44,004 bases of DNA from an uncultured Bacilli bacterium (GTDB lineage: Bacteria; Bacillota_I; Bacilli_A; RF39; UBA660): the NCBI GenBank assembly GCA_944373095.1, contig CALWAK010000005.1:1-44004 (forward strand), written 5' to 3'. A model generated the notes under the pieces. It did no database searches. It had not been told where the DNA came from and worked only from the letters and a program-made list of their open reading frames with translations. The translations under genes and the position numbers were made by a program. Position 1 is the stretch's first letter. Each line of letters opens with the position of its first letter. Shown one piece after another: positions 1 through 38,146 of this stretch.

Positions 1-1
1 T

Positions 2-11778: not shown

Positions 11779-11802
11779 ATATCCCCCACAACTTAAGAAT
11801 AG

Positions 11803-14648: not shown

Positions 14649-14720
14649 ATTTTCAACTCCCATATATTAAAATTTTAACACATTTATATATAATTTAAAA
14701 GTAATTAAAAATTATTGTCA

Positions 14721-14749
14721 TTGATTATATTTTTATGATATTCTATATT
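14721..14749 (+). promoter_or_regulatory. Promoter for the small HTH gene
   Basis: TTGATT 14721-14726 and TATATT 14744-14749 with 17-base spacing. Transcription would begin near 14756, a few bases before ATG 14759, so the message may be almost leaderless. Confidence 0.45.
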
Positions 14750-14758
14750 AGTGATGAT

Positions 14759-15022: not shown

Positions 15023-15082
15023 TAAACAAGTTGCAGCATTAATAACTATATTATATAATTATAAATAATAAAGGTGATTAAT

Positions 15083-15727: not shown

Positions 15728-15732
15728 AAAGA

Positions 15733-15757
15733 AAACTCAGATGCCTGAGTTTCCTTT
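15733..15757. terminator. Bidirectional terminator
   Basis: Eight-base stem (15733-15740 with 15745-15752), loop ATGC. The minus strand reads into a run of T (A run 15726-15730) and the plus strand into CCTTTTT. It separates the convergent genes ending at 15727 and 15758. Confidence 0.8.
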
Positions 15758-23524: not shown

Positions 23525-23782
23525 ATGAAGGAAGCAACTGGTGAATTAAATATGACTGTTGTAACAGTAGTTGCTATTGCGGCAATAGGTGCCTTCTTTT
23601 ATGCATTTGTTTGGCCTGCAATTCAAGCAAGTATTAAACAAAGTACAAGATGTTCTAATGCAGTTGGATGTGATTGTAGTGCTGGAGATACTTGCCAATG
23701 TAGTTATTATCTAGATGATGGAACTATTTCTACAGAAAAGATAACTTGTCCAAATCCTAGTTATAATGAAAATGACAAATAA
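23525..23782 (+). CDS. Pilin-like short protein, Cys-rich tail (secretion cluster 1)
   Basis: 85 residues. The N-terminus MKEATGELNMTVVTVVAIAA leads straight into one hydrophobic helix ending FFYAFVWP, then a short outer tail with six Cys in pairs (RCSNAVGCDCSAGDTCQC and later C). The next three proteins begin in the same way (M[KR]Exx G). This layout of short polar leader with Gly, hydrophobic helix and small ectodomain is that of Tad or type IV-like minor pilins. No Glu stands at position +5 after the Gly, so processing by a standard prepilin peptidase is uncertain. It is first in the cluster and closely related to the next gene. Confidence 0.75.
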   Translation: MKEATGELNMTVVTVVAIAAIGAFFYAFVWPAIQASIKQSTRCSNAVGCDCSAGDTCQCSYYLDDGTISTEKITCPNPSYNENDK

Positions 23783-23821
23783 TCTAAGATTTATACTTTA
23801 TGAATTGGAAGGAAAATAAGT

Positions 23822-24055
23822 ATGAAAGAAGCTACTGGGGAATTAAATTCTACTGTTATTGTAGTTATAGCTGTTAGTATCCTAGCGGCTTTTTTCTACA
23901 TGGTAATTTGGCCAATGTTAAAAAAAAATATGGATCAGAATAGTAAGTGTAGTGATGCATGGTGTGAGAAATGTACTGATCCTGCTGGATGTCAAATGGT
24001 TGTATGTCACTATGGAGATAATGATAATACAATTATGTGTCCATGGAAAGGTTAG
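23822..24055 (+). CDS. Pilin-like short protein, Cys-rich tail (secretion cluster 2)
   Basis: 77 residues, a clear paralogue of the preceding protein: MKEATGELNSTVIVVIAVSI, helix ending FFYMVIWP, then a Cys-rich tail (SKCSDAWCEKCTDPAGCQ and two further Cys). GGAAGG precedes ATG 23822. The even number of Cys and their clustering suggest disulfides in an extracytoplasmic domain. The gene is 39 bases after the first and 6 bases before the third, within one operon. Tandem duplication of a pilin-like subunit is the likely origin. Confidence 0.75.
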   Translation: MKEATGELNSTVIVVIAVSILAAFFYMVIWPMLKKNMDQNSKCSDAWCEKCTDPAGCQMVVCHYGDNDNTIMCPWKG

Positions 24056-24061
24056 TAAATT

Positions 24062-24538
24062 ATGAAAGAATCGTTTGGTGCGTTAAGTATAACAACCATA
24101 TTTGTAACATTAATAATTCTTTTTTCTGGATACTTATGTATATCAGTTAATCAAACTAAAGCGTATAGTGTAAAAAATGAATTAGTAAATATTATTCAAA
24201 GGCACAATGGAGTTGATACTACTACTATTGATGAAATTGCAGGGCATTTAACGGAAGTTGGTTATAGATCAGTTGGAAAATGTGATGAAGATGATGGTAT
24301 TGGGTATACTATATCTGGGAGTAAAAGTCAAACTAAAGCTAATTACTGTATAAAATGTGTAAATATCAATATAAATCTTAATGATCCTTATAATCAATTT
24401 CCTAATGCTACTTATTATAAAGTAAAAGTATTCTTTTCACTAGATTTACCTATTGTAAATGATGTATTTAAATTTTATCTTAAGGGAACGACTAAAACTC
24501 TTTATTATCCAGTAAATGGAGGAGGCTGTTCCGTATGA
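24062..24538 (+). CDS. TadE-like/pseudopilin-like protein (secretion cluster 3)
   Basis: 158 residues. MKESFGALSITTIFVTLIIL gives the shared leader and helix, then KAYSVKNELVNIIQRH as the start of the lollipop helix, and an outer domain with GYRSVGKCDE, YCIKCVNINI, KVKVFFSLDLPIVNDVFKFY and a last strand LKGTTKTLYYPV. The segment with LP, a turn and F-x-x-x-G-x-T is like TadE-family minor pilins. It is paralogous to the next protein and overlaps it by 4 bases (ATGA). Confidence 0.72.
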   Translation: MKESFGALSITTIFVTLIILFSGYLCISVNQTKAYSVKNELVNIIQRHNGVDTTTIDEIAGHLTEVGYRSVGKCDEDDGIGYTISGSKSQTKANYCIKCVNININLNDPYNQFPNATYYKVKVFFSLDLPIVNDVFKFYLKGTTKTLYYPVNGGGCSV

Positions 24539-25026
24539 GAGAGACTATTGGAACTACTTGGATTTTTCAACTTGTTATAATATTTATATTAATATTTGCT
24601 TCATATTTAGCAATAATGACTAATTATTCTAAAGCATTTAAATCTAAAAATGAAGTATTAAATATAATTGAAAAATATGAAGGATTAACTAGTGGCAATT
24701 TAAAAGGAATTGGAATAATAAACAATTATTTATCGGCTTCAGGATATAATTCAATGGGTACTTGTGAAGCAGGATATTATGGTGCTGTTAGTTTAAATAA
24801 TTCAAGCACTAGTGCCTTTGAATATGTTGGAAATGGTAGTAATAAAAAATATTATTATTGTGTTCAAAAAGTAACTTTTACTGGTGTTAAAGTAAAAAGT
24901 TATTATAATGTCGTTTTATTCTTTAATCTTAATTTACCTGTTTTAGGAAATTTATTTACATTTAGAGCTAATGGAACTACAACAGAACTTGAAGTTACTT
25001 ATGATCAAGATTTATTTGGAATATAG
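24535..25026 (+). CDS. TadE-like/pseudopilin-like protein (secretion cluster 4)
   Basis: 163 residues, starting in the 4-base overlap with the preceding gene. MRETIGTTWIFQLVIIFILI and KAFKSKNEVLNIIEKYEGL match the previous protein's plan. The outer domain YNSMGTCEAGYYG, YYYCVQKVTF, YYNVVLFFNLNLPVLGNLFTF and NGTTTELEV aligns with its paralogue throughout. Conserved Cys pairs could bond. It is probably a membrane-inserted minor pilin that works with the three proteins before it. Confidence 0.72.
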   Translation: MRETIGTTWIFQLVIIFILIFASYLAIMTNYSKAFKSKNEVLNIIEKYEGLTSGNLKGIGIINNYLSASGYNSMGTCEAGYYGAVSLNNSSTSAFEYVGNGSNKKYYYCVQKVTFTGVKVKSYYNVVLFFNLNLPVLGNLFTFRANGTTTELEVTYDQDLFGI

Positions 25027-25038
25027 AAGGAGGATTTT

Positions 25039-26094
25039 ATGAATGTTATAATATCAAATCGTTATAGTGAAATGCTTACTAATTTAAATATAGATATTAT
25101 AAAAAATGTACGTGGTGAATACGAACCAGAAATCATAATAGCAAACTTTGAAAACTTCTTTTTTAATAAAATGATATTAGATATAACTGCTGTTACTGGG
25201 TATAAAAATATAACTAATATTCAAAAATTAGCATCAGGTTTAGATATGAATAAAGTCATCCTTTTATTAGATGATTCTCCAGAAGTAAATTCACCAAGTT
25301 ATTTATCTGGATTAGTATCTATGGGTATATATAATTTTACTAGAAACATAGATTCAATTGAATATTTAATTAATAATCCGAATACATATAAAGATGTAGC
25401 ACACTTACATATTATTGGTGATAATGGCTCTTCTAGTCAGCCAAATTTAAATATTAATATTAGTGCAGGTAGTGTAAATTCTAACTTTTTTAATGAATCT
25501 ATAAATAGAGTATCAATGGGTTCGAGAGTAATTGCTATTAAAAATGTTACTGAACATGCTGGAGCAACTACATTAATTTATATGTTAAAAAAACAACTTG
25601 AAAGAAATTACAAGGTACTTGCTATTGAAGTAGATAAAAATGATTTTGTTTATTTTAATGATTCTGATTTAAGAACTTGTAATACAGGTGAACTAGATTC
25701 AATTATTAAAAATCCTAATAGTAATTATGATGTTATTTTAGTAGATATTAATGAGTCTCCTAAGATAGCCTCTATTAAAGAAGTAATTCATTTAATTGAA
25801 CCTAGTACAATTAAGTTAAATAAACTTATTAGAAAAGATAGAGCAGTTTTAACTAAAATGAAGAATTATAAAATTGTTTTGAATAAAAGTCTTTTAAGTA
25901 GTAAAGATGTATCAGAGTTTGAATATGAATCACGTTGTTCAATATTTGAGTCTATACCTCCATTAGATGATAAGAAAGAACAAAATCCAATCTTAAATAA
26001 TTTATTAAATAAATTAGGCTTTAATAAACAAGAACCAGTAGGCGGCGTTAAAAAGCCTGTAGGCAAATTATTTGGTATTGTAAAGGATGAGTAA
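25039..26094 (+). CDS. TadZ/CpaE-like MinD-family protein with altered Walker A
   Basis: 351 residues, AGGAGG before ATG 25039. The N-terminal 120 residues have receiver-like alternating strands and helices (IIIANFENFF, KVILLLDDSPEV, LVSMGIYNFTRN). The C-terminal part is a MinD/ParA-like P-loop domain: VIAIKNVTEHAGATTLIYML takes the place of KGGVGKTT, KVLAIEVDKNDF is the switch region and YDVILVDINES the Walker B region. The signature Lys is missing, as in TadZ/CpaE relatives. TadZ proteins localise Tad pilus machines at the cell pole. Placed between the pilin-like genes and the VirB genes, it would fit as a positioning or assembly factor. The C-terminal tail is Lys- and Pro-rich. Confidence 0.7.
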   Translation: MNVIISNRYSEMLTNLNIDIIKNVRGEYEPEIIIANFENFFFNKMILDITAVTGYKNITNIQKLASGLDMNKVILLLDDSPEVNSPSYLSGLVSMGIYNFTRNIDSIEYLINNPNTYKDVAHLHIIGDNGSSSQPNLNINISAGSVNSNFFNESINRVSMGSRVIAIKNVTEHAGATTLIYMLKKQLERNYKVLAIEVDKNDFVYFNDSDLRTCNTGELDSIIKNPNSNYDVILVDINESPKIASIKEVIHLIEPSTIKLNKLIRKDRAVLTKMKNYKIVLNKSLLSSKDVSEFEYESRCSIFESIPPLDDKKEQNPILNNLLNKLGFNKQEPVGGVKKPVGKLFGIVKDE

Positions 26095-26099
26095 ATTCC

Positions 26100-26128
26100 T
26101 TGACAATGCTATTTTTTTTATATAAAAT
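26100..26128 (+). promoter_or_regulatory. Strong internal promoter of the secretion cluster
   Basis: TTGACA 26100-26105 (consensus) and TAAAAT 26123-26128 at 17-base spacing, followed by AGGAG and ATG 26156. Confidence 0.7.
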
Positions 26129-26155
26129 AATGTTAGATGAAGGAGATGTTATTAT

Positions 26156-26488
26156 ATGTTCTTAATGAATTTATCACCTGCTACAGTTTGTACTGAATTA
26201 AAACCTGTTTTAAATCTTATTGGCATGGTAATAACTGCTGTTAAAATTGTTATTCCAATTTTATTAATTTTATTTGGTATGTTGGATGTAGGTAAAAGTG
26301 TAGTAGCTAGTAAACCAGAAGAAATATCAAAAAGTATTAAAAGTTTTGCTTTCCGTGCTATTGCTGCAGTTTTAATTTTCTTTATTCCTGCAATTGTTGG
26401 CTTAATCATGCAAACTGTTGCTGAAACTGGGGATCAAGATGCTAAAGGTTGGGAAACTTGCAAAGATAATTTATATTTAAATTTTTAA
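26156..26488 (+). CDS. VirB2/TrbC-like two-helix membrane protein A
   Basis: 110 residues. Two hydrophobic helices (about 20-44 VITAVKIVIPILLILFGML and about 68-90 AIAAVLIFFIPAIVGLIM) flank a short basic loop (SKPEEISKSIKSFAFR). That is the layout of VirB2/TrbC pilins and related two-helix proteins of Gram-positive secretion systems. The downstream protein at 26553 repeats the same core, including the KPxE loop. Its own consensus promoter and a following terminator (26488-26519) suggest it is made in excess, as expected for a major subunit. The Cys in the N- and C-terminal tails could be outside. Confidence 0.7.
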   Translation: MFLMNLSPATVCTELKPVLNLIGMVITAVKIVIPILLILFGMLDVGKSVVASKPEEISKSIKSFAFRAIAAVLIFFIPAIVGLIMQTVAETGDQDAKGWETCKDNLYLNF

Positions 26489-26519
26489 AGTGATATTTTT
26501 TACAAATATTACTTTTTTT
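26488..26519 (+). terminator. Terminator after the VirB2-like gene
   Basis: An 11-base AT-rich stem with one G-T pair (26488-26498 with 26504-26514), then TTTTT. The following TATAAT (26524-26529) is the -10 of the next unit, so terminator and promoter abut. Confidence 0.6.
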
Positions 26520-26552
26520 ATGCTATAATTTTTTTGATAGAGGTGAAATTAT

Positions 26553-27215
26553 ATGTTTAAAACTTCAAATAAAATTTCGTTAACTTTAATATTTTTTTTA
26601 ATTTCACTATTTTCTTATAGTAACGTTGTATTAGCTGAAGAAATAAAACTTGGATATAATGAAAAAATAACAAAAAGTACCAATGCTGCTGGTTGTACTT
26701 CTAGTAATACTAGTTGTGTTACAACAAAAAGCGGTCAGTATGCAACTTCAACATTTACTTGTGAAGTAACCTCTTTAGCTAAAGATTGTACTGCTACAGT
26801 TAATATCGGTGGTCAAGCTTATGATGTAGTTGTTGGAAAAGGTAGTACTATGGGGGGCGGAACAACTTCTGAAGGCAGTGGAGCTGGTAGAGATGAAGCA
26901 ACTAACGAAAATAATAATAGTGGTACTTTAACTTGTAATTATATATTGGGAGATTATAACGACCCAGAAGATTTGGGATATTACCTTGCTAAGTTGTTAG
27001 AAGTTATAAAAATAGCAGGTCCTGTTTTAGTTATAGTTATGACCATAGTAGATTTAGTAAAGATAATTGCTTTAGGAAAGCCAGATGAGTTAAATAAATT
27101 AGTTGTAAAATCAATAAAAAGAATAATTTATGCAGTATTATTATTCATTATTCCATCATTACTAGATTGGGTATTTAAATTATTTAGCGTTTACGGGGTT
27201 TGTATTCCAAGTTAG
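26553..27215 (+). CDS. VirB2-like two-helix protein B with signal peptide and ectodomain
   Basis: 220 residues, ATG 26553 after AGAGGTG. A signal peptide (ISLTLIFFLISLFSYSNVVLA, AEE cut site about residue 30) is followed by a Thr-, Ser- and Gly-rich outer region with four Cys (CTSSNTSC, FTCEV, DCTATV) and a Gly-rich linker. The last 85 residues repeat the VirB2-like core of the preceding protein: KIAGPVLVIVMTIVDLVKII, GKPDELNKLVVKSIKR, AVLLFIIPSLLDWVF. It can be viewed as a VirB2-type protein with an added extracellular domain. It begins the unit that runs through the VirB6-, VirB3- and VirB4-like genes. Confidence 0.72.
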   Translation: MFKTSNKISLTLIFFLISLFSYSNVVLAEEIKLGYNEKITKSTNAAGCTSSNTSCVTTKSGQYATSTFTCEVTSLAKDCTATVNIGGQAYDVVVGKGSTMGGGTTSEGSGAGRDEATNENNNSGTLTCNYILGDYNDPEDLGYYLAKLLEVIKIAGPVLVIVMTIVDLVKIIALGKPDELNKLVVKSIKRIIYAVLLFIIPSLLDWVFKLFSVYGVCIPS

Positions 27216-27226
27216 GAGGTATTAAA

Positions 27227-29323
27227 ATGTATTTATTATACTCGTTTCAACAAGGATTGTTAGGCAACATAGGAGAATTTTTTCATCGTGTTTTAATATG
27301 GTTGTTTTTATTTATTGATACATTTGTTTATTGGCTAATAAATATTTCTTATCAAACATTTTTAGCAATAAGTCAGATAAGAATTTTTAGTGATGAAGAC
27401 ATATATGATTTATCCCAAAGAATATATATACTAATTGGTGTTTTCGCGTTATTTTTTGTAGCGTATGCATTATTAACGGCAATTGTAAATCCTGATAATA
27501 GTAAAAAGGATGATAAATCGTTAGGAAAAATTGTTCCTAATATTGCAGTAGCAATTATTGGAATAGCTATTGTTCCTGCAGTATTTAATATTATGTATGA
27601 TGTACAACATGCAGTATTATGTGGTAATGTAATTCCAAAGTTAGTTTTAGGTAATTCTTATAATGATGGATTCGATATTGATAATACCAATAGTAATAAA
27701 CTCGGTTCTCAAATGGCTACGTTATTATTTAAATCATTTTTTTATGTTCAAGATGAAAATGGAGATCCTGCTGATTTATCCCAAGCAGATACAATAGCAA
27801 GTACAATTTACGAAAATGATTGTAATGGGAGTGGATGTCTTACTTTATCTCAGGCATATAAAAATGCTGAAAATGGCTCTTCATTTTTTTCGTTTAGGAA
27901 TTTTTCGGATGCTGTTGTTGACGGAAAGGCTGGTTATTTATTCATAGTTTCAACGCTTGCTGGTGGTTTTTGCGTTTATGTTTTAGTATCACTTTGTCTA
28001 GATATGGCTTTAAGAGCGGTAAAATTATCTTATTTGCAAATAATTGCTCCATTACCATTATTAACGACAATAATTCCTGGGCAAAAAAAAGTTCTTACAA
28101 ATTGGATAAAAAAAACAACAAGTTGCTTTATTGAAGTATTTGTTAGATTATTTGTTGTTATTTTTATAGCATATATAATGCGTACTCTAGATCAAGTTTT
28201 AACAAATTTGCGAGGAACAGGAGGTATTTATTGTGGAGATATAAGTACGATTGTTTGGCTATTAGTTAAAGCTGCAACTATAGTTGGCTTATTCTGGTTT
28301 ATTAAAATAGCTCCAAAACTAATTTCTGATATCACTGGTATGGATAGCAAAGGATTTAAACTTGGTATTAAAGATAAACTTGCTGAATCTGGAGCTTTCC
28401 AAGTAGTTGGCGGACTTGGAGCTGGTGCGACAGCTGGTGTAAGAAATTTAACAAAAATTCCTCAGCATTTGATGAATGGTGCTAGCAAGGGAAAAAGTAT
28501 GCCTTGGAAGGTTTTTCGAGGCGGTCTAGGGGCTTTAAGAGGTGTAGGCGGCGTCTTTGCTGGTGCAGGTAGTGGATTTGCTCGAGGAGTAAAATCTAAC
28601 ACTGGAACAAAAGGATATCGAGATTTAGTAGGTAATACATCGAGAGCAGCTCTTGATGCAGAGCAAGCAAGAATTAATAGAGAATTATATGCTAAAGAAC
28701 ATGGTGATAATATAATTGGTATAGCGCAAGGTCATATAAAAGATGCTGCTACATCAACTAAAGATACTCTAACTAGTTGGATATCTGGAAAACCATCAAA
28801 CAACAATGCCAAAGCTGAAAGATTAAATAAAATTGAAACTGCTAGAAAAGCAATTTACGACGCTGTAAAAGATGATAAAAGCGTTAAAGTTATAGATGCG
28901 TTATATGAGGGAGAAATAGAAAAAGTAAAGAATTCAAATCTTTCATTATCAGCAAAAAGAAGTGAAATAACTAGACTTCAAACTGCTTGGGGTGATGAAA
29001 AGGACAAAGCAATTGCAAGTACAATTGCCTCTAGATCTAACAATATTGACATGAAGAGACTTTTAACTAATTATTCAGATATAATTGCAAATGAATTACC
29101 ACTTATTACAGAAACTTTAACTGAAACGGGAAATATTGGCAAATCAAATTATAAAGATTTACTTAATGATCCTAGTAGATTAAGAATGGATATAATGAGT
29201 GGTGCAGCTTTTCAATTTAATGGGAATGATAAAGGCATTGGTTTAATAATTGGTAAGGATTCTGCTAAATATTCTGCTTCATTACGAATTAAACAAGCAC
29301 AAAAAGATAGCGGAAAAAAATAG
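27227..29323 (+). CDS. VirB6/TrbL-like polytopic channel protein
   Basis: 698 residues from ATG 27227, which has AGGAGG 7 bases upstream. An upstream TTG in frame lies before that site. About seven or eight membrane helices span residues 15-370. An outer loop (about 140-215) has paired Cys (NDCNGSGC). The first cytoplasmic-side motif RAVKLSYLQIIAPLPLLTTI and WIKKTTSCFIEVFVRLFVV is typical of Gram-positive VirB6/TrbL proteins. The C-terminal 300 residues are soluble, with a Gly- and Ala-rich part (GGLGAGATAGVRN, RGGLGALRGVGGVFAGAGSG) and then helices. It would form the inner-membrane channel with the PrgI- and VirB4-like proteins encoded next. Confidence 0.85.
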   Translation: MYLLYSFQQGLLGNIGEFFHRVLIWLFLFIDTFVYWLINISYQTFLAISQIRIFSDEDIYDLSQRIYILIGVFALFFVAYALLTAIVNPDNSKKDDKSLGKIVPNIAVAIIGIAIVPAVFNIMYDVQHAVLCGNVIPKLVLGNSYNDGFDIDNTNSNKLGSQMATLLFKSFFYVQDENGDPADLSQADTIASTIYENDCNGSGCLTLSQAYKNAENGSSFFSFRNFSDAVVDGKAGYLFIVSTLAGGFCVYVLVSLCLDMALRAVKLSYLQIIAPLPLLTTIIPGQKKVLTNWIKKTTSCFIEVFVRLFVVIFIAYIMRTLDQVLTNLRGTGGIYCGDISTIVWLLVKAATIVGLFWFIKIAPKLISDITGMDSKGFKLGIKDKLAESGAFQVVGGLGAGATAGVRNLTKIPQHLMNGASKGKSMPWKVFRGGLGALRGVGGVFAGAGSGFARGVKSNTGTKGYRDLVGNTSRAALDAEQARINRELYAKEHGDNIIGIAQGHIKDAATSTKDTLTSWISGKPSNNNAKAERLNKIETARKAIYDAVKDDKSVKVIDALYEGEIEKVKNSNLSLSAKRSEITRLQTAWGDEKDKAIASTIASRSNNIDMKRLLTNYSDIIANELPLITETLTETGNIGKSNYKDLLNDPSRLRMDIMSGAAFQFNGNDKGIGLIIGKDSAKYSASLRIKQAQKDSGKK

Positions 29324-29338
29324 AATAGGGAGGGACTT

Positions 29339-29665
29339 ATGCAAAACTTTTTAATACCAGCGAATAGTAAAAAATCTAAATTAATTTTTGGCTTTTTTAC
29401 TGTTAAAGATTTAATTATATTTGGAGTTGGTGCAATTGTTACAATGTTTATGCTATTAATATTTAATTCTAATAGTATTACACAAGTATTATTAATGTGT
29501 ATGCCTCTTATGATTTCATTATTTCTAGTTATGCCTGTGCCATATTACCATAATGTTATGACTTTAATTGAAAATGTATTAAGTTATTATAGTTCAAATA
29601 ATCCAAGGGAATATACGTGGAAGGGTTGGTGTGTAAAAGATGTCTATGGAAAAAACAGAGAATAA
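29339..29665 (+). CDS. PrgI-family (VirB3-like) membrane protein
   Basis: 108 residues, ATG 29339 after AGGGAGG. The start QNFLIPANSKKSKLIFGFFT, two adjacent helices (about 25-70, VKDLIIFGVGAIVTMFML and VLLMCMPLMISLFLVM) and the tail NPREYTWKGWCVKDVYG are the PrgI pattern. PrgI/VirB3 proteins bind VirB4 at the membrane. The stop overlaps the next ORF by 26 bases, so translation is probably coupled, as is usual for this gene pair. Confidence 0.85.
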   Translation: MQNFLIPANSKKSKLIFGFFTVKDLIIFGVGAIVTMFMLLIFNSNSITQVLLMCMPLMISLFLVMPVPYYHNVMTLIENVLSYYSSNNPREYTWKGWCVKDVYGKNRE

Positions 29666-30203
29666 TAATTATAAATATTGTGAAGATTGGTTACCAGTAA
29701 AAAATATTGCTAACGGAATGATTCAACTAGAAGATGGGAATTTCGTTTGCGGAGTTAAAGTTGAACCTAAAAATATATTTATTTTAGATACAGGATCTCA
29801 AAATAATATAATTACACAACTTAGAAATTTATATAATGCAATAGATTTTGAATTTTGGCTTACAATTGCTGATAGACCAGTTGATATTAATGCTTATCTT
29901 GCTCAATTGCAAATTTTATATCAAAAAACTAACAGTAATATTACTAGAAAATTAATTATGCAAGATATAAATAAAGCTAATTCTTTTATGGGTGCTGAAT
30001 ATAATATAGTTGATACAGAATATTTTATTTTATTTAAAGAAAAAAGAATAGATATAATTCAAAAAAGACTTAGAACTTTAATAACTGGATTAGCAAATTG
30101 TGGTTTAAATTCTATGCAAGTATCAAATACTGATTTAAGAATGATTTTAGATAACTTCTTAAATGGTGGTGTTGCAACAAACTTTGGGACGGTGATGTTT
30201 TAA
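29640..30203 (+). CDS. VirB4 N-terminal domain encoded as a separate ORF
   Basis: 187 residues. Its content (DWLPVKNIANGMIQLEDGNF, VCGVKVEPKNIFIL, FWLTIADRPVDINAYLAQL, YFILFKEK, LRTLITGLANCGLNSMQVS) is that of the N-terminal membrane-contacting part of Gram-positive VirB4/TraE proteins. It has no ATPase motifs. It ends at TAA 30201-30203, whose last A is also the first base of the next ATG (TAATG). The start could also be the ATG at 29646. Either VirB4 was split into two polypeptides that reassemble, or a frameshift joins them; the overlap signal and intact motifs favour a true split. Confidence 0.8.
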   Translation: MSMEKTENNNYKYCEDWLPVKNIANGMIQLEDGNFVCGVKVEPKNIFILDTGSQNNIITQLRNLYNAIDFEFWLTIADRPVDINAYLAQLQILYQKTNSNITRKLIMQDINKANSFMGAEYNIVDTEYFILFKEKRIDIIQKRLRTLITGLANCGLNSMQVSNTDLRMILDNFLNGGVATNFGTVMF

Positions 30204-31990
30204 TGTTAAATATAAAAAGTGAATTAGCCCCTAAAGGGATGAAATTTAATGTAACTGACTTTATTATGAGTGGAAAGTATTGTACTGTATTTACAATTAT
30301 TAGTTATCCTAAATATATTGGTCCTGGATATTTGGCAGATTTAAGTAATATAGCAGGTGTAAAAGTGGTTGCAAAACACATACCAATAGAATTTAGTACA
30401 ATGTCTAAAATGATTAATAAAGAAATTGCGGATTTAAAACAAAGATATCAAAATGAAAATGACCGTACTATTCAAGAAAGAATTAGACAAGATTATGAAT
30501 CTTTAGAACAATTTGTACAAATGTTAGCTGCTACCCAATCTAGAATATTTGATTTTCAACTACATTTATTAATTGTTGGGGATTCAAAAGAAGATTTAGA
30601 AAATAAAAAAATAAATGTTAGAAGTTTTTTAGATGCTATGGGAATGCAAGGTATTCAATTAATGTTTGAACAAGAAAAAGCATTAAAATCTATTTTACCT
30701 ATATTTCCTAAACAAGATTTAGAAGAAAGAATTGGTACACCAATTCCATCACCAACTCTAGCAGCCATGTATCCATTTATTTTTGATAGTGTTAAAGATA
30801 TTGGAAATTCTACATTGCTTGGTGTTGATTATTCTGGTGGTGTAGTATTATTTAATCAATTTTTATATCAAATAAAAAAAGAATATAATAGAAATAATGC
30901 TAATATGATTATATTGGGTACATCAGGTAGTGGTAAATCAACTGCAAGTAAATTACTTTTAAGAAGCCATATAAGAAATGGTTATAAAGTAATAGCCATA
31001 GATCCAGAAGGTGAACTAGAAGAGATGGCTAGATTTCTTGATGGGGACTTCTTAGATATGGGTAAAGGTGGAGAATTCGGTATGATTAATCCATTAGAGA
31101 TAGTTGCTGATGCTGATGAAGAAGAATTAGATAAAGGTCTAGGATATACAATACTTACAAGAGCCTTGCAATCCTTAAAAGCATTCTTAAAATATTATTC
31201 GCCTGATATTGAAGAAGATGTATTAACAATGTTTAGTGAAATAATGCAAGATACATATAAAAGGTTTAGAATAGATTATAATACTGATTTTTCTAAGTTA
31301 ACTAGTATGGATTATCCAACTTTTGATGATGTTTATGCAACTATTAGAGGAAGAATATTATCAATTCCTGATAAAACTAGAGAAAAAGATATTTTAGAAA
31401 GATTAGAACTTAAAATTAGACCTTTTACTAAAGAATTAAGATATTATTTTAATGGTCATACAACTTTAAATATTAATAGTGATTTTGTTGTATTTAATAT
31501 AAAAGATTTAATGAATAGTAATGAAAATATTAGAGATGCAATATTCTTTAATATCTTAAAATATGCCTGGGGATTATGCCTTGATAAGACTGTAACATCA
31601 GTATTAAGTGTTGATGAAGCACATGTATTATTATCTTCTCATAATGAGTTAGGAGCTGAATTTTTAGCACAAATTCAAAGACGTGCTCGTAAATACAATA
31701 GTGGTACTATTATTATTACTCAACAGCCAACTGATTTTGCTGCTCAAAATTTAATCATGCATGGCAAAGCTATTTTTGATAATGCGTCATACTATTTAGT
31801 TATGGGATTAAAAAAACAAGCTGTTGATGATTTATCTATGTTAATAGATTTAAATGAAGCTGAAAAGAATAATATTAAATATTATAATCAGGGACAAGGA
31901 TTATTTATTTGTGGCTCTAGAAGAATGCAAGTATCCATTATTGTTACTAATGAAGAATTAGACTCATTTGGTTCGGGCGGTGGGCTATAA
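30203..31990 (+). CDS. virB4: VirB4-family secretion ATPase (catalytic part)
   Basis: 595 residues. The N-terminal 230 residues continue the VirB4 accessory domain (APKGMKFNVTDFIMSGKYCT, LLIVGDSKEDLENK). Walker A is GTSGSGKST (about 239-247), followed by KVIAIDPEGELEEMARF. Walker B is VLSVDEAHVLL (about 470) and the later TIIITQQPTDF and YYLVMGLKKQAVDDL blocks are typical of the family. VirB4 powers pilus or channel assembly at the inner face of the membrane. Translation probably depends on the preceding ORF through the one-base TAATG overlap. A terminator follows at once (31990-32013), ending this transcription unit. Confidence 0.93.
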   Translation: MLNIKSELAPKGMKFNVTDFIMSGKYCTVFTIISYPKYIGPGYLADLSNIAGVKVVAKHIPIEFSTMSKMINKEIADLKQRYQNENDRTIQERIRQDYESLEQFVQMLAATQSRIFDFQLHLLIVGDSKEDLENKKINVRSFLDAMGMQGIQLMFEQEKALKSILPIFPKQDLEERIGTPIPSPTLAAMYPFIFDSVKDIGNSTLLGVDYSGGVVLFNQFLYQIKKEYNRNNANMIILGTSGSGKSTASKLLLRSHIRNGYKVIAIDPEGELEEMARFLDGDFLDMGKGGEFGMINPLEIVADADEEELDKGLGYTILTRALQSLKAFLKYYSPDIEEDVLTMFSEIMQDTYKRFRIDYNTDFSKLTSMDYPTFDDVYATIRGRILSIPDKTREKDILERLELKIRPFTKELRYYFNGHTTLNINSDFVVFNIKDLMNSNENIRDAIFFNILKYAWGLCLDKTVTSVLSVDEAHVLLSSHNELGAEFLAQIQRRARKYNSGTIIITQQPTDFAAQNLIMHGKAIFDNASYYLVMGLKKQAVDDLSMLIDLNEAEKNNIKYYNQGQGLFICGSRRMQVSIIVTNEELDSFGSGGGL

Positions 31991-32013
31991 AACTGCAATT
32001 TGCAGTTTTTTTT
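31990..32013 (+). terminator. Internal terminator after VirB4
   Basis: Eight-base stem (31990-31997 with 32001-32008), loop ATT, T run to 32013. A -10-like TAAAAT at 32029-32034 then serves the wall-hydrolase gene. Confidence 0.85.
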
Positions 32014-32058
32014 CATGATTAAATATGATAAAATATTTTTGATAAGAGGTGGTTATTT

Positions 32059-34425
32059 ATGAATAATTCTGAAGAAAAAAAAGATCAAAATAAAGTAAAT
32101 ACCACTAATAATACTGGTGTTAATAAACTAGGTGAACAGCAAAAATTAAATAGTAGGCAGCAATATACTAATAATCAAGATAATACTGGAGAAACTTCAT
32201 TTAATAATAGTGGAGTATTGCCTCCTAAAGTTAATTCTTCTCACGTTAATGATTTAGAAAAAGATGATAAAGAACAACCACAAACTTTTAATAAAACTAG
32301 TAGAGTTTCAAATGCTGCTATTGATACTGATGGCAATGGTAGTAGTGTGCCTCAAAAGGGAACTCAAAAAGTTACAGAAAATGCTGGAGAGAAAGCTGGA
32401 AAAGCAGCCGGAGCTTATTTAGGTGGTCCAATTGGAAGTAAGATTGGTGGTTTTTTAGGTAAACAAATTGGAAAAAATATTAATTCTAAAACTATTATAA
32501 AAAATTTAGCGAATACACCTATTTTAATTTCTAAAGTTAATTCTCCTAAACAAAATAAAAACTCTGAAATAACTCAAGAAAATAATGATGTTCAGGAAAA
32601 TAAAGATCCTAAGCAAAATAGTGAGAATTCTAAGCAAAATGATAGCAATTCAACCGAACAAAATAGTCAAGAAGATAATACTTCAAAAAATGATAAACAA
32701 AGTAACCCATTAGCGTTAAAAAAGAAAAGTAAAATTTTTGGTGAAGCAAGTATACCTATAAAATTAGTTGCTTCTAGTTTTATAGGTGTATATATTTTAT
32801 TATTTATTATAGTAATAATAATTGGTTTTATAATGGTAGGTCAAAGTGGCAAATCATTAGATGTTGATGAAAATGGTGTAAATTGTATAAATATTACATC
32901 ATGTGATAGTGTAATTATTCCTAGTGGTCCATCAGCTGGAACTTATGATATTACTGAATATTTAGCAGGAGCGGTAAACTATTATTTTGGTACATATGAT
33001 AATGCTGAAGTGTATAAAGCAATGGGCTTAATTGTTAACACTGATTTAATTACTTATGCAGATATGGATTTTGAAAATAGTACATGTACTTTAAATGATA
33101 AAACTAAATTTAATAATGTAAGTATTATTTCAAATTCTACTGAAGATAATTTTGATGAAAATAATGAGCAAGTAGATTCAAAATATAATTTAGTTTCTTA
33201 TGGAACTTTAAATAGTAAAAATGAAATAATTATAGGTTATTCGCCAACTATTGAACCAAATGTTGCTGCTTTAAATAGTAGTGCAGATTATAAAACTATT
33301 ATTGAAGAATATTTAAGAGCAAAAGAATTAGAAATAGAAAACTTTGGTATATATAAAATTTGTGGTATGAGTGGTTCAGAAAATTTAACTTACGTTGACA
33401 TGAACGTTTGTGATAATGTAACTATAACAAATGGCAAATTTATGGGAACTTATACTTTAGACGATTATGTTGCTGGCGTAATTAACCATGAAGTCGGGGG
33501 ATTTAAAGATGAGGAAACTTTCAAAGTGTTTTCTATAGCAGCTCGTACTTATTTACTTACTAGATCTAAAAATGTTGATGGTGTATGTTATATGATAGAC
33601 AGTAATGATACTCAAAAATTTACACCTACAACTGATTCGTTAATTATAAATGCGGTTGCTCAAACAAGTGGGCAAGTAATGACTGATGGGAATGGAAATT
33701 TAATTTCAACGGAATATGATTCTTTTTGCTATGCTAGTAAAGATCAGAATTATTATTATTTAGCTCAAAAAAATCAAGCCATTCCTATTAGTTGGGCATA
33801 TGCTAATGTTCCAAAATGGAGTGGGACATCGTATTTAGAAAATCCATGCGGTACTGATGGTGATGGCGGTCATGGGCGTGGAATGAGCCAATATGGTGCT
33901 TATTATATGTCTACAGAAGAAAGTAAAAATTATAATGAAATATTAAGTTTCTATTATGATACAGGAACTTTATCGACAACTTTAAAAGTTGACTCAATTA
34001 ATGGAGAAGTAAATTCTTATGGTCTAATGAATCCTTTAGAAACTACTGGTAATTGTTCATCTTTATTTGGTAATAGAATTCATCCAATAACTGGTATCTT
34101 AAAATCTCATGGTGGCGTTGATATAGCGCGTGCAGCAAATACGCCAATATATGCTGCTCAAGATGGCACTGTTACTTTAAATGGTTATGATAAAGATGGA
34201 TATGGATATTATGTTATAATTACAGGTAATAATGGAATTTCAACAGTATACGCACACATGATAAGACCATCAAATTTACAAATTAATCAAACAATTACCG
34301 CTGGAACATTAGTTGGTTATGTTGGTCATACTGGTGCTGCAACAGGCAATCATTTACATTTTGAAGTTCGTGTAAATGGAACAAGAGTAGATCCATTACA
34401 ATATTTACCAGGTTTATGTGGGTGA
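32059..34425 (+). CDS. Membrane-anchored bifunctional wall hydrolase: SpoIID-like lytic transglycosylase plus M23 endopeptidase
   Basis: 788 residues, AGAGGTGG before ATG 32059. Domains in order: an Asn-, Gln- and Lys-rich cytoplasmic tail with a Gly-zipper-like stretch (about 111-145); one membrane helix (about 236-262); a degenerate SpoIID-like segment (about 288-440) that keeps GTYDITEYLAGAV but lacks the active Glu; an intact SpoIID domain (about 455-640) with GTYTLDDYVAGVINHE (Glu 478), AARTYLLTR and HGRGMSQYGA (from 605); and an M23 peptidase (about 660-785) with SHGGVDI (His 684, Asp 688) and HLHFEV (765-770). SpoIID cuts bare glycan strands and M23 cuts peptide bridges. Within the cluster it takes the VirB1 role of opening the wall for the channel. 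Confidence 0.9.
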   Translation: MNNSEEKKDQNKVNTTNNTGVNKLGEQQKLNSRQQYTNNQDNTGETSFNNSGVLPPKVNSSHVNDLEKDDKEQPQTFNKTSRVSNAAIDTDGNGSSVPQKGTQKVTENAGEKAGKAAGAYLGGPIGSKIGGFLGKQIGKNINSKTIIKNLANTPILISKVNSPKQNKNSEITQENNDVQENKDPKQNSENSKQNDSNSTEQNSQEDNTSKNDKQSNPLALKKKSKIFGEASIPIKLVASSFIGVYILLFIIVIIIGFIMVGQSGKSLDVDENGVNCINITSCDSVIIPSGPSAGTYDITEYLAGAVNYYFGTYDNAEVYKAMGLIVNTDLITYADMDFENSTCTLNDKTKFNNVSIISNSTEDNFDENNEQVDSKYNLVSYGTLNSKNEIIIGYSPTIEPNVAALNSSADYKTIIEEYLRAKELEIENFGIYKICGMSGSENLTYVDMNVCDNVTITNGKFMGTYTLDDYVAGVINHEVGGFKDEETFKVFSIAARTYLLTRSKNVDGVCYMIDSNDTQKFTPTTDSLIINAVAQTSGQVMTDGNGNLISTEYDSFCYASKDQNYYYLAQKNQAIPISWAYANVPKWSGTSYLENPCGTDGDGGHGRGMSQYGAYYMSTEESKNYNEILSFYYDTGTLSTTLKVDSINGEVNSYGLMNPLETTGNCSSLFGNRIHPITGILKSHGGVDIARAANTPIYAAQDGTVTLNGYDKDGYGYYVIITGNNGISTVYAHMIRPSNLQINQTITAGTLVGYVGHTGAATGNHLHFEVRVNGTRVDPLQYLPGLCG

Positions 34426-34429
34426 TAAA

Positions 34430-35170
34430 ATGAGAAAGATAAAATTAATAGTAATATTATTTTCTATAATTGTATTAAGTGGATGTACAGTTAATTACAC
34501 TATTAATATAGACGAAGAAAGTTTTAGTGAAAAAATAAGTATTAGCGATTTTATAACTGTTACTAGAACAATTGATGAAATTACAACATCTTATCAAGAG
34601 TATTATCCAACTACTATTGAAGGAGTAGCAGATTTGAATTCGCTAATATGTGAGTCTATTGAAAAGTGTTATAAAAAAAGTTTGGCATTACAAAGCAATA
34701 CTGGATATATATATAATTTAGAAAATAGTAATTTTTTAGATAACTTTGTAAAGACTACAAGTTGGTTATTTTCAAATAATACAAAAAGTTTTTTAAATGA
34801 TGAAAATAATATTATAATATCTACAAGTAATGGATTAAAATATTTTGATTTGATAACTGATTTAACTGAAATAAATATAACTTTAGAAACTGATTTAAAT
34901 GTTGTTAAAAATAATGCTGATATAGTAAATGGTACTTCTTATACTTGGGTGTTTACTAGGGAAAATTATTTAACTAAGAATATATTTATAAATATAGAAA
35001 AGAAAAAAGAAGATAATCAAGATAGTGAAAATAAGGATGAAGATGATAAAGTTAATGAAGAAGAAATAGTTAATGAAAATAAAAATAATAAATATACTAT
35101 TTTTATTATAATAGGTATATTGATAGTTTATTTTATAATAATAAGATTTATAATCAAAAAGAAAAGATAG
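34430..35170 (+). CDS. Lipoprotein with additional C-terminal membrane anchor
   Basis: 246 residues from ATG 34430, preceded by GGGTGA. A GTG start at 34418 would lie inside the previous gene and lacks support. The signal KLIVILFSIIVLSGC has a textbook lipobox (LSGC, Cys 19). The outer domain begins VNYTINIDEESFSEKIS and contains three more Cys; strands and helices alternate with no recognised fold. An acidic and Lys-rich linker (KKKEDNQDSENKDEDDK) precedes a C-terminal helix (YTIFIIIGILIVYFIIIRFI) with a basic end. Being tethered at both ends is unusual. The 4-base-scale spacing to the hydrolase gene implies co-translation and a joint role in the secretion apparatus. Confidence 0.78.
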   Translation: MRKIKLIVILFSIIVLSGCTVNYTINIDEESFSEKISISDFITVTRTIDEITTSYQEYYPTTIEGVADLNSLICESIEKCYKKSLALQSNTGYIYNLENSNFLDNFVKTTSWLFSNNTKSFLNDENNIIISTSNGLKYFDLITDLTEINITLETDLNVVKNNADIVNGTSYTWVFTRENYLTKNIFINIEKKKEDNQDSENKDEDDKVNEEEIVNENKNNKYTIFIIIGILIVYFIIIRFIIKKKR

Positions 35171-35190
35171 ATATTATTATTTACTTATTG

Positions 35191-35196
35191 TATAAT
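35191..35196 (+). promoter_or_regulatory. Possible -10 of a VirD4 gene promoter
   Basis: TATAAT in the 51-base gap before the coupling-protein gene, with no clear -35. Read-through from upstream is equally possible. Confidence 0.3.
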
Positions 35197-35221
35197 GTAA
35201 TATAGAAATTGGGTGTTGTTA

Positions 35222-37822
35222 ATGAAATTTAGAATAACTTCTAAGGATTTATTGATTTTTGTGATATTTTGTATATTTTTACTTTATTTATGTGCTATTG
35301 GTGTATTAAATTTTATTAACTTTGGCGCTGAAGGTAAATTATGGGGGCTAAATCCTTTACCTGCTTTTACAGGTACTTATTTACCTATAACGCTATTACT
35401 ATTTTTCTTAGCACTAATTATGATTTTTTCTTCAGTTTCTTCTTATGTTTTTGAAAGAGAAAAAAAAGGTGTTGGTATAACTGTTAAAGAAAAAGAAGAA
35501 AAGGGTTATTCAAACTGGGCTAAAGATAAAGATATAAAAACAGATAGAGATGTAGAAAAAGTAGTTACAACTGATAAAACTTTAAAAGCAGCTGGTGTAC
35601 CACTTTGTACTGGCAAAAATAATGAAATGTGGGTAGATAATGGTGAGTATCATACACTTGTAATAGGTTCATCTGGTTCAGGTAAATCACGTTGTGTTGT
35701 TAAACCAATGGTTAATTTATTGGCTAAAAAAGGTGAATCAATGATTATTACCGACCCAAAAGGAGAACTTTATATTGCTTCAGCAAATAAATTAAAAGAG
35801 TTAGGATATAAAGTAATAGTATTAAATTTTCGTGACCCTTTAAAAGGAAATGCGTGGAATCCTTTAACTTTACCATATCAATATTATAAAATGGGAAATA
35901 TGGATAAAGCTACTGAATTATTAGATGATGTTGCTTTAAATATTTTATATGATGCAAATAATAAAGGTGAACCTTTCTGGGAAAAATCTGCTGCCGATTA
36001 TTTTTCTGGATTGGCATTAGGATTATTTCAAGATGCTAAAGAAGAAGAAATTAATATTAATTCAATCAGTTTAATGGCTACTATTGGTGAAGAAAGACTA
36101 GGAGCATCAAATTATGCTAAGGAATACTTTTTATTAAAAGGCGAATCTTCTAGTGCTTATACTTTTGCATCTGGAACTATTAATGCTCCTAGTGATACAA
36201 AAGGTGGTATAGTTTCTACTTTTAGACAAAAAATACGTTTATTTGCTTCTCGTGAAAATTTATCAGAAATGTTAGGTCATAGTGACTTTAGTGTATTAGA
36301 TATTGGCCGTGAAAAAACTGCTGTATTTATTGTTGTTCATGATGAAAAAACTACATATCACGCTTTAGCAACAATATTTATCAAACAGTGCTATGAAACT
36401 TTAATAGATGTTGCTCAAGAAAATGGTGGTAAATTACCAATTAGGACTAATTTTATTTTAGATGAGTTTGCTAATATGCCTCCATTAAAAGATGTTGACT
36501 CTATGGTTACAGCAGCCCGTAGTAGACAAATGCGTTTTACTTTTATTATTCAAAACTTTGCCCAATTAAATGATGTATATGGTAAAGAAGTAGCAGAAGT
36601 AATTCGTGGTAACTGTGGTAATACAATATATTTGATCTCTACTGAACTTGCTGCTTTAGAAGAAATTAGTAAAATGTGTGGTGAGGTTAAATCTAAAGAA
36701 AAAGATAAAACTGCTTCAACGCCGTTAGTAACTGTTACAGATTTGCAAAAACTAAAATTAGGTGAAGCAATAATTATGCGTATTAGAAAAAGTCCATTCA
36801 AGACTAAATTGCCATTTAATGATAAAGTCGATTGGGGATATCAAGTTGTTGATGCTGATTTTCCGGTAAGAACTGTCAAACAAGTTGCCTTATTTGATAT
36901 AAAAAACTTTGTTAATGAAAAGAAAAAAGAAAAAAGTTTGGCAAATGGTGGTGCTAACCCATTTGGTGGTTTCTCACCATTTGGCGGAAATCCATTTGCA
37001 GCATCTCCTTTAGGTGGTTCTCCGTTTGGAAATAATAATTTTAATCCAAATCCATTTGGTAATATGGGAAATTCATTAAATAATAATCCTAATCCTTTTG
37101 GCCCAAGCCCATTATCAAATGCTAACACTAATAAAGCTGATAATAATTTATTTGGTAATAATTTTGATTTAGATGCAATGATGCGTGATATAGATAAAAA
37201 GATTGCTGAATTAGACGCTGAAGAGGCAAAGCAAAAAGAAAACTTAAATAAAAATTCAATAACAGAAGATGCTATTAAAACTTTAGAAAGTAATGTTAAA
37301 AAACCTAATATTGATGATTATTTAGGCTTGACTTCTAAAATAGATACTTCAAAAATAAAAGAAGAAGAAAAGAAACCTGATATAATAAGTAATGATAAAA
37401 CAATTGAGGATACAGCGAAAGTTGATGAAGATTTACTTATTGATATTAATATAAATAAAGAAATTAAGACTGATAATGATATATTAAAAAATATTGATAT
37501 AAAGCAGGCAATTGATAATCTATCTACTGAATATTCAAATATTTTAGAAAATAAAAAAGAAAGTATTGATGAATCAAATTATACATTACCTAGTTATGAT
37601 ACTTTAGAAGAAATTCCTATCAAAGAAGAAAAAATAGAAATTAATAATAAAATTGAAGAACCTAAAAATGAAACATTAAGTACAAATGAAAATTTAGTTA
37701 TCGAAAGAAATGAAGAAGATAAACCAAAAATAAATGTTGATGCTGATTCTGTAGTTATTAATAATAATGTTATTTCTGATGATGAATTTTTTGATGATTT
37801 CTTTGGGGATGACGACTTTTAG
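35222..37822 (+). CDS. virD4: VirD4/TraG-family type IV coupling protein
   Basis: 866 residues from ATG 35222 (GGGTG at 35211-35215; the GTG at 35213 lies in that site). Two N-terminal membrane helices (about 8-30 and 53-75) come first. Walker A is GSSGSGKSR (149-157), then MIITDPKGELY and VLNFRDPLKGNAWNPL, Walker B FILDEFANMPP (Asp 414), and AARSRQMRFTFIIQNFAQL. All are VirD4/TraG hallmarks. After residue 570 the protein changes to a disordered NPFG/SPFG-rich stretch, then a long acidic and Lys-rich tail ending in FFDDFFGDDDF. Coupling proteins pick substrates for the channel. With no relaxase in the window the cargo may be protein. Confidence 0.93.
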   Translation: MKFRITSKDLLIFVIFCIFLLYLCAIGVLNFINFGAEGKLWGLNPLPAFTGTYLPITLLLFFLALIMIFSSVSSYVFEREKKGVGITVKEKEEKGYSNWAKDKDIKTDRDVEKVVTTDKTLKAAGVPLCTGKNNEMWVDNGEYHTLVIGSSGSGKSRCVVKPMVNLLAKKGESMIITDPKGELYIASANKLKELGYKVIVLNFRDPLKGNAWNPLTLPYQYYKMGNMDKATELLDDVALNILYDANNKGEPFWEKSAADYFSGLALGLFQDAKEEEININSISLMATIGEERLGASNYAKEYFLLKGESSSAYTFASGTINAPSDTKGGIVSTFRQKIRLFASRENLSEMLGHSDFSVLDIGREKTAVFIVVHDEKTTYHALATIFIKQCYETLIDVAQENGGKLPIRTNFILDEFANMPPLKDVDSMVTAARSRQMRFTFIIQNFAQLNDVYGKEVAEVIRGNCGNTIYLISTELAALEEISKMCGEVKSKEKDKTASTPLVTVTDLQKLKLGEAIIMRIRKSPFKTKLPFNDKVDWGYQVVDADFPVRTVKQVALFDIKNFVNEKKKEKSLANGGANPFGGFSPFGGNPFAASPLGGSPFGNNNFNPNPFGNMGNSLNNNPNPFGPSPLSNANTNKADNNLFGNNFDLDAMMRDIDKKIAELDAEEAKQKENLNKNSITEDAIKTLESNVKKPNIDDYLGLTSKIDTSKIKEEEKKPDIISNDKTIEDTAKVDEDLLIDININKEIKTDNDILKNIDIKQAIDNLSTEYSNILENKKESIDESNYTLPSYDTLEEIPIKEEKIEINNKIEEPKNETLSTNENLVIERNEEDKPKINVDADSVVINNNVISDDEFFDDFFGDDDF
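36945..37115 (+). repeat. NPFG/SPFGG low-complexity repeat inside the VirD4 gene
   Basis: Short imperfect repeats encode variants of N-P-F-G, S-P-F-G-G and F-N-P-N-P-F-G about ten times over some 55 residues. No such stretch occurs in typical VirD4 proteins. Confidence 0.7.
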
Positions 37823-37840
37823 AACCTTATGGTTCTTTTT
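37821..37840 (+). terminator. Terminator closing the secretion cluster
   Basis: Six-base stem AGAACC/GGTTCT (37821-37826, 37831-37836), loop TTAT, then TTTT. The VirD4 stop (37820-37822) touches the left arm. Confidence 0.75.
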
Positions 37841-37888: not shown

Positions 37889-38146
37889 ATGAAAAGCATA
37901 AAATTAAGTGAATACACTAATGATGGTATATTAATAGATTTAGAAAATAATGTTACATATAATAACTGGCATGATAGTAGAGCTATTAATATTCCTTATC
38001 AAGATCTAGTATATAATTTTTCAACATTATTAGATAAAAATAAAAAATATTATTTATATTGTCGTTATGGTAATAAAAGTAGAAGAGCTGTAAGTATTTT
38101 AGAAATTTATAATTATGATGTTACCCAAGTTTTACTCGATAATTAA
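37889..38146 (+). CDS. Single-domain rhodanese-like protein
   Basis: 85 residues, GGAGG before ATG 37889. It contains the short rhodanese layout: ILIDLENNVTYNNWHDSRAINIPYQ (the usual D-x-R and G-x-I-x-x-A-x-N-I-P region), then YYLYCRYGNKSRRAV with the catalytic Cys in the loop, and a final helix and strand. Such proteins carry persulfide sulfur on the Cys. The protein is cytoplasmic. The loop CRYGNKS is the same length as in active rhodaneses. The partner and sulfur acceptor are unknown. Confidence 0.85.
   Translation: MKSIKLSEYTNDGILIDLENNVTYNNWHDSRAINIPYQDLVYNFSTLLDKNKKYYLYCRYGNKSRRAVSILEIYNYDVTQVLLDN

Follow-up and report, generated by a model that had tools for sequence, protein, structure and literature searches.

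Gene Content of the Locus

The stretch analyzed here (the window) is one whole contig (C5, CALWAK010000005.1; 44,004 bp) of a 1.08-Mb metagenome-assembled genome (MAG) of an uncultured Bacilli bacterium of the RF39 lineage, which comprises 72 contigs and is ∼90% complete. On its forward strand, positions 23525–37822 hold a run of 14 open reading frames (ORFs), with gaps of −26 to +68 bp, in which Tad-type pilus genes are followed by the VirB and VirD4 genes of a type IV secretion system (T4SS). A sequence-only reading of the window had the coordinates and the strand of this run right and miscounted its genes as 13. All genes and sites of the locus given below lie on the forward strand.

The run opens with pilA1 (23525–23782), which encodes a Tad-type pilin-like protein of 85 amino acids (aa) that starts with MKEATGELN, has a transmembrane (TM) helix at residues 11–29, and ends in a Cys-rich tail, and continues with pilA2 (23822–24055), which encodes a second pilin-like protein of 77 aa. 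The N-terminal motif of PilA1, including its Gly, is common to the family members found; the Gly is invariant, and PilA lacks a Glu at +5, in contrast to the G^xxxxE site of Flp pilins. Two TadE-like pseudopilins follow, psE1 (24062–24538; 158 aa), whose family and position are kept in relatives, and psE2 (24535–25026; 163 aa), and then a TadZ-like protein (25039–26094; 351 aa) with an N-terminal receiver-like domain and a ParA/MinD-like domain. The TadZ P-loop reads HAGATT and lacks the Walker-A lysine, here and in relatives. Neither TadZ nor the pilins have a confident Pfam match, and a sequence search of the PDB with TadZ gave no match; these assignments are based on the conserved operon context, on the co-occurrence of TadZ with TadA, and on a predicted ParA/MinD-like fold of modest confidence (TM score about 0.46; predicted local distance difference test [pLDDT] 62).

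The VirB genes begin with VirB2a (26156–26488), a T4SS pilin-like protein of 110 aa with two TM helices that matches T4SS_pilin at 3e-4, under the cut-off, and VirB2b (26553–27215), a longer VirB2-like protein of 220 aa with a signal peptide and a C-terminal TM pair, which has a weak Pfam match and occupies a conserved slot. The VirB6-like polytopic membrane protein (27200–29323; 707 aa, six TM segments) matches the Mbov_0396/MMCAP2_0566 families at 1e-10 to 1e-11, also under the cut-off, whereas VirB3 (29339–29665; 108 aa, two TM helices) is a PrgI family member above it. VirB4 is encoded by two genes, an N-terminal part in a TrsD-like position (vB4N; 29640–30203; 187 aa) and the ATPase part (vB4C; 30203–31990; 595 aa; Walker A GTSGSGKS at 239). 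vB4C matches TraG P-loop/VirB4 and the NCBIfam model VirB4_plasma (1.6e-108), vB4N matches the N-terminal portion of the same model (5.5e-14), and the solved structure nearest to the ATPase part is the VirB4-like 4ag5 (E 2e-61). The split (∼185–213 plus ∼594 aa) recurs in all 34 related loci that have adjacent vB4N and vB4C, which rules out a sequencing error, and it corresponds to the TrsD and VirB4 gene pair of other monoderm systems.

Downstream of VirB4 lie a cell-wall hydrolase with SpoIID and M23 domains, both above cut-off, in the VirB1-equivalent slot (32059–34425), a lipoprotein conserved in relatives' loci (34418–35170; lipobox LSGC, C-terminal TM helix), and the VirD4 coupling ATPase (35213–37822; 869 aa), which matches T4SS-DNA_transf (PF02534; E 4e-53) and, above cut-off, the NCBIfam family CD1115. 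VirB3, VirB4, VirD4, SpoIID, and M23 are thus secure by curated Pfam and NCBIfam models, and the ATPase motifs are intact (P-loop and DE in VirD4, and the P-loop in both VirB4 and TadA, the latter encoded elsewhere in the genome). In relatives, the hydrolase has an NlpC/P60, CHAP, or C39-like domain instead of M23; the sequence-only reading, which saw no CHAP/NlpC hydrolase, is corrected to that extent. A VirB8-like (TcpC) protein has no Pfam match in the locus, for which the lipoprotein and the N terminus of the hydrolase are candidates only.

VirD4 ends in a lineage-specific acidic tail, DDEFFDDFF. The form DD[EQ][FY][FY]DDFF is found on the VirD4 proteins of this chromosomal (hereafter resident) type that were examined, including three from genomes without a resident VirB4, and is absent from the VirD4 proteins of integrative conjugative elements (ICEs) and plasmids examined. 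The fuller resident tail is KPKINVDADSxxVNxNxI[ST]DDEFFDDFF (window 37700–37822; VirD4 C-termini of loci L005–L084). The acidic-aromatic tail is a plausible docking motif.

Promoter- and terminator-like sites, all of them consensus matches only, lie at the module borders: before pilA1, before virB2a (26100–26128), after VirB4 (a weak terminator-like hairpin with a T-tail at 31989–32009, at the boundary of the VirB module), and after VirD4 (a second weak hairpin at 37821–37836). These sites coincide with the borders at which relatives' loci break.

The Tad Half and the Complete Locus

The pilus assembly genes of this genome are on another contig, C1 (locus L086), which carries TadA, TadB, TadC, and two CpaB-like genes. 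The same contig encodes a pair of giant surface proteins and a pair of pseudopilin-like proteins that match DUF5411 (3.6e-50 and 2.5e-51). TadA matches PF00437 (E 8e-28) and the structures of CpaF and VirB11 equally well. TadB and TadC fit by position, size, and TM pattern, and in a profile comparison they match the T2SSF protein of contig C8 weakly. The CpaB-like proteins match RcpC (E 2.4e-5 and 9e-4) and CpaB (5.6e-5), all under the curated cut-offs, and hold a conserved slot before tadA. Pilins, TadZ, TadB, and TadC are assigned mainly by context. The absence of TadA, TadB, and TadC noted by the sequence-only reading is true of the window and wrong for the genome; likewise, its failure to see a prepilin peptidase holds for this MAG, while the enzyme is present in 89 of 98 relatives, including the congener G040.

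In this C1 region (1–15746, reverse strand), the two surface proteins (1498 and 1179 aa), the two DUF5411 pseudopilins, the two CpaB-like proteins, and two C-terminally anchored proteins of 237–241 aa make up a duplicated set around TadABC, which suggests paralogous pilus tip or adhesin sets. A second, divergent TadZ-TadA-TadB-TadC cluster lies on contig C8 (L085; 7506–11142, forward strand) beside a MiaB-like gene and has no obvious pilin genes; one of its proteins matches PF00482. In the window itself, two adjacent large proteins of 1017 and 937 aa on the reverse strand (8725–14663) have no Pfam match at 1e-10.

In relatives, the Tad genes stand immediately upstream of the pilin genes, which gives one Tad-VirB-VirD4 locus of ∼25 kb. 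As reconstructed, its genes run in the order surface protein, DUF5411 pseudopilin, CpaB, TadA, TadB, TadC, PilA1, PilA2, two TadE-like proteins, and TadZ, followed by two VirB2 genes, VirB6, VirB3, VirB4N, VirB4C, wall hydrolase, lipoprotein, VirD4, and a rhodanese-like protein; the latter (37889–38146 in the window) is the usual VirD4 neighbor in relatives and is not proposed as a part of the machine. We read contiguous Tad and VirB genes in 13 genomes that had been picked for TadA near VirB4, and in 10 of the 13 the run continues to VirD4. Since TadA, TadB, TadC, and CpaB lie directly upstream in relatives, the locus in the window is the right half of a larger one.

Distribution and Vertical Inheritance

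The survey covered 98 genomes from the family, with roughly one genome for each genus. Those relatives that carry names are uncultured Bacilli/Tenericutes MAGs and include Candidatus Caccenecus, Ventrenecus, and Coprovivens. A gene was counted as present on a full-length or clearly high-scoring partial match, with ICE-type homologs left out; the counts lean on single profiles and on incomplete MAGs. VirB4 is present in 82 genomes, TadA in 80, VirD4 in 86, and TadZ in 80; TadA, VirB4, and VirD4 occur together in 70, and 7 have none of the three. Across the order, 172 of 193 genomes have a VirB4 match at E ≤ 1e-60, of which at least two (G077 and G086) are ICE-type. Among 395 genomes drawn from the whole class, the close form of VirB4 is limited to this family apart from one 3-kb contig; this split VirB4 from outside the order (G560) comes from a MAG with 7% contamination and was treated as a contaminant.

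The history of VirB4 follows that of its hosts. In 28 genomes, the VirB4 and RpoB trees have 18 of 25 splits in common (mean 0.19 and maximum 2 in 500 random relabellings), and the VirB4 and RpoB distances are correlated (Mantel r 0.74). The median VirB4 distance is 0.57 times the RpoB distance, and VirB4 therefore evolves more slowly than the RNA polymerase β subunit. The locus is flanked by the MutL and isopentenyl pyrophosphate (IPP) transferase genes. We found no tRNA in the window, no long near-identical repeats flanking the locus, and no integrase or att-like repeats at the locus.

A relaxase is missing as well. None of the 14 locus proteins is relaxase-like, and no MOBP relaxase was found anywhere in this genome, MOBP being the class searched for genome-wide. 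MOBP relaxases occur in 24 of the 98 genomes without following the distribution of VirB4 (p 0.75), and many of them sit on contigs that carry a different, unsplit VirB4 of 770–830 aa and its own VirD4. These relaxase-bearing, ICE-type machines serve as an internal control for what real conjugative elements look like in these genomes.

The homology of the locus to conjugation genes would fit an ICE or the decaying remnant of one. Such an element is very hard to reconcile with the order-wide presence, the RpoB-congruent tree, and the core flanks, which rule it out, or with the lack of a tRNA and flanking repeats, the intact ATPase motifs, the rate below that of RpoB, and the different build of the true ICE-type machines in the same genomes; we give it almost no weight. 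The earlier view of an immobile, resident machine that combines Tad with VirB/VirD4 components and lies between core genes, with no relaxase, is in agreement with these data: no relaxase, integrase, or att site was found at the locus, and its distribution is that of a vertically inherited, order-wide trait rather than of an element limited to a few strains. It is virtually certain that the locus is real, complete, and resident on the chromosome, with a hybrid anatomy.

Further VirB4-, VirB2-, and VirD4-like genes occur in these genomes. In G094 (C18, 50000–69999; L190), a second, unsplit VirB4 of 778 aa lies between the resident VirB6 and VirB3, before the resident split VirB4, and forms a long branch within the supported clade of resident VirB4s. 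In G107 (C19, 8000–27999; L189), six long VirB2b-like paralogs of 202–419 aa and VirB2a precede VirB6, an array that resembles the multiple VirB2 pilins reported in Patescibacteria. Contig C4 of the window's own genome (L198; 12702–13652) encodes a shorter VirD4-like protein of ∼410 aa with no recognized VirB4 nearby, and several relatives have similar VirD4-like homologs of ∼350 aa.

Comparison with Known Systems

The best plasmid matches of the locus are to conjugative plasmids that carry the same Tad and VirB/VirD4 set. pLS20 of Bacillus subtilis (NC_015148.1) has a large surface adhesin upstream of tadA, a DUF5411-like gene, TadA, TadB, TadC, small tandem pilin-like genes, TadE-like genes, and a VirB2-like gene, and beside the Tad genes it has VirD4, VirB6, VirB3, and a two-gene VirB4. 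Among these assignments, those of TadB and the TadE-like genes are the least firm, being profile matches at E 0.004–0.01 backed by position. pLS20 differs in being plasmid-borne with a MobP2 relaxase, in a VirD4 without the DDEFFDDFF tail, and in an adhesin with a thioester domain, which was not detected in the resident surface proteins, where it has no Pfam support and the Cys/Gln pattern is not conserved. Exiguobacterium pEYLC1.2 has the same set with an annotated RcpC/CpaB and a TadZ-like ATPase, but is a plasmid with a MobP3 relaxase upstream of its VirD4. The combination is also found on a 98-kb Mycoplasmatota plasmid and in G245, a genome of another family. The hybrid anatomy and the residency that the sequence-only reading proposed are retained, while its isolation as a find is not: pLS20, pEYLC1.2, zrk4, and G245 rule out that the combination is unique to this lineage.

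In papers on pLS20, virB11 and virD4 are named, and conjugation in Gram-positive bacteria is described as pilus-free (PMC11730352, PMC8092201). Positions 9839–14265 of pLS20 (L243), inside its conjugation region, hold TadA/TadB/TadC-like genes and tandem pilin-like genes of 47–57 aa, at odds with the usual account of Gram-positive systems as having neither VirB11 nor pili. In our literature search, no paper was found that calls these pLS20 genes Tad genes, and one for type IV secretion in RF39 gave no relevant result.

In the TadA tree, the resident proteins group with those of pLS20, Peribacillus, the Listeria plasmid pFV4, and G245 (support 95/98), apart from Gram-negative VirB11, TrbB, and CpaF; branches are long and the deeper part is uncertain. 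The resident VirB4 clade, by contrast, groups with element-type VirB4s of other Bacilli and not with pLS20. Descent of the two modules together from an element like pLS20 fits TadA but not VirB4. The Tad-VirB/VirD4 partnership is real and recurrent, and its parts may have been recombined.

Compared with the Tad (type IVc) pilus, the resident machine has an ATPase of the TadA/CpaF-VirB11 family, a pair of membrane proteins placed where TadB and TadC would be, CpaB/RcpC-like, TadZ-like, and TadE-like proteins, and small pilins; its TadB and TadC are very divergent, its pilins lack a long leader, its TadZ lacks the Walker-A lysine, and it is linked to VirB/VirD4. The mycoplasma ICE families Mbov_0395, 0396, and 0397 are the nearest NCBIfam matches for VirB2a, VirB6, and VirB4, respectively, but that element is mobile, has an unsplit VirB4, and, in the M. 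hyopneumoniae example, has no Tad genes. The chromosomal T4SS of Patescibacteria (PMC12102498) is likewise lineage-wide and mostly relaxase-less, with monoderm VirB3, VirB4, VirB6, and VirD4 and VirB2-like pilins; its bearers have small genomes and possess type IV-type pili as well. It belongs to another phylum, a VirB8-like protein is reported and no Tad genes are mentioned (PMC12102498), and the likeness is one of description. A chromosomal T4SS is essential in Southlakia epibionticum (reviewed in PMC12857230), and delivery of protein to neighboring bacteria has been proposed for the relaxase-less Patescibacteria T4SS (PMC12102498, PMC12857230).

Linkage of the Tad and VirB/VirD4 Halves

Across the 98 genomes, VirB4 co-occurs with VirD4 (Fisher p 3e-8) and, less strongly, with TadA (p 0.0015), in both cases uncorrected for relatedness, while TadZ tracks TadA and not VirB4 (77 genomes have TadZ and TadA, 15 have neither). 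In 29 of the 72 genomes with both TadA and VirB4, whose assemblies are fragmented, TadA precedes VirB4 by 8–13 kb on one strand. Loci that are broken up retain their parts: 15 of 16 genomes picked for having no VirB genes upstream of VirD4 keep a split VirB4 elsewhere. In loci L044 and L047, VirB2–B4 are on a separate contig from the Tad set, hydrolase, lipoprotein, and VirD4, which are grouped in a single run; L007 likewise has VirD4 directly behind the Tad genes and hydrolase, with VirB2–B4 elsewhere in the genome; and in G091, TadA, VirB4, and VirD4 are at three separate places. Because L044/L047, the window's genome, and G091 are split at different points, the breakpoints vary and yet the parts are kept. 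Tad and VirB are not mutually replacing alternatives in L044 and L047, since VirB4 is present elsewhere in those genomes.

The halves could nevertheless be two neighboring machines, a conventional Tad pilus for adhesion and a minimal T4SS, that share ancestry or regulation and do not cooperate physically. Each half can occur on its own (VirB4 without TadA in 10 of 98 genomes, TadA without a resident VirB4 in 8), the promoter- and terminator-like sites at 26100–26128, 31989–32009, and 37821–37836 mark the borders at which relatives' loci break, and the VirB4 and TadA trees have different outside sisters. Two independent machines would not readily explain why the genes stay contiguous and in the same order in many genera even though genomes have been rearranged, why the partnership recurs in plasmids of unrelated Bacilli and in G245, or why VirD4 stays directly behind the Tad genes and hydrolase when VirB2–B4 are elsewhere. 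We consider such independence unlikely; from gene order and co-occurrence, a functional link between the halves is probable.

A Proposed Model for Cargo Delivery

The reading that we favor, with a probability of about 0.6, is that the locus encodes an order-wide, vertically inherited, relaxase-less Tad and VirB/VirD4 hybrid, homologous to pLS20-type machinery, that delivers non-self cargo, most likely protein, by contact. TadA/TadB/TadC, CpaB, and TadZ would assemble a short pilus or pseudopilus of PilA1 and PilA2 with TadE-like minor pilins, which, together with the giant surface protein, would reach and hold a neighboring cell. The SpoIID/M23 enzyme (or its NlpC/CHAP counterpart) would open the wall locally, and VirB6, VirB3, and VirB2 would form the conduit, driven by the two-gene VirB4. 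VirD4 would pick the cargo and feed it into the conduit for delivery to neighboring bacteria. A more specific proposal, in which the Tad pilus is the outer, cell-contacting part of the VirB/VirD4 translocator and the whole is a core organelle of the order for delivery of non-DNA cargo or uptake of material, parallel to the T4SS and pili of Patescibacteria, is tentative, with the odds rather against it.

Since there is no relaxase, self-transfer is unlikely, and the cargo is most likely protein or another cargo that does not depend on a relaxase; for protein rather than DNA as the main cargo, we put the chances at about even. A machine for DNA transfer would send out DNA of the chromosome or of plasmids by means of a relaxase supplied in trans, use relaxase-free transfer as described for mycoplasma chromosomal transfer, or serve DNA uptake. 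In favor of DNA are the matches of VirB4, VirB6, and VirB2a to mycoplasma ICE families and of VirD4 to the CD1115 conjugation family, the conjugative nature of the closest plasmid machines, and the presence in the family of a prepilin peptidase and other pilus-type ATPases. Against this stand the lack of a MOBP relaxase in this genome and the relaxases of other genomes, which are unassociated with the machine and sit with their own VirB4 and VirD4. We consider DNA transfer or uptake unlikely as the function of the machine.

Several observations weigh against delivery of non-self cargo by a linked hybrid. The genome-wide relaxase search covered MOBP, and another relaxase class or a trans-acting relaxase may exist. 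No effector signature was found. Pfam support is absent for TadB and TadC and weak for CpaB, the structure prediction for TadB is unusable (pLDDT 43), and a prepilin peptidase was not detected in this ∼90%-complete MAG. The halves are separable, as the genomes that keep one without the other indicate, and they may have been combined more than once, because the nearest outside kin of VirB4 differ from the pLS20 lineage.

Implications

The locus is not an isolated curiosity without a Tad engine, which is how the sequence-only reading presented it, but one part of a relaxase-less relative of the hybrid conjugation machines that is inherited throughout the order. A relaxase-less T4SS is thus core to an order of uncultured gut Bacilli and is tied there to a VirB11/TadA-family ATPase and pilus genes, and the order is therefore a natural test set for non-conjugative T4SS in Gram-positive bacteria. 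The comparison further points to Tad-like pilus genes on pLS20-type plasmids, which have been described as pilus-free (PMC8092201, PMC11730352); B. subtilis would allow a direct test of these genes. If the machine serves cell contact in these reduced-genome gut bacteria, it would help to explain how auxotrophic lineages live among other cells.

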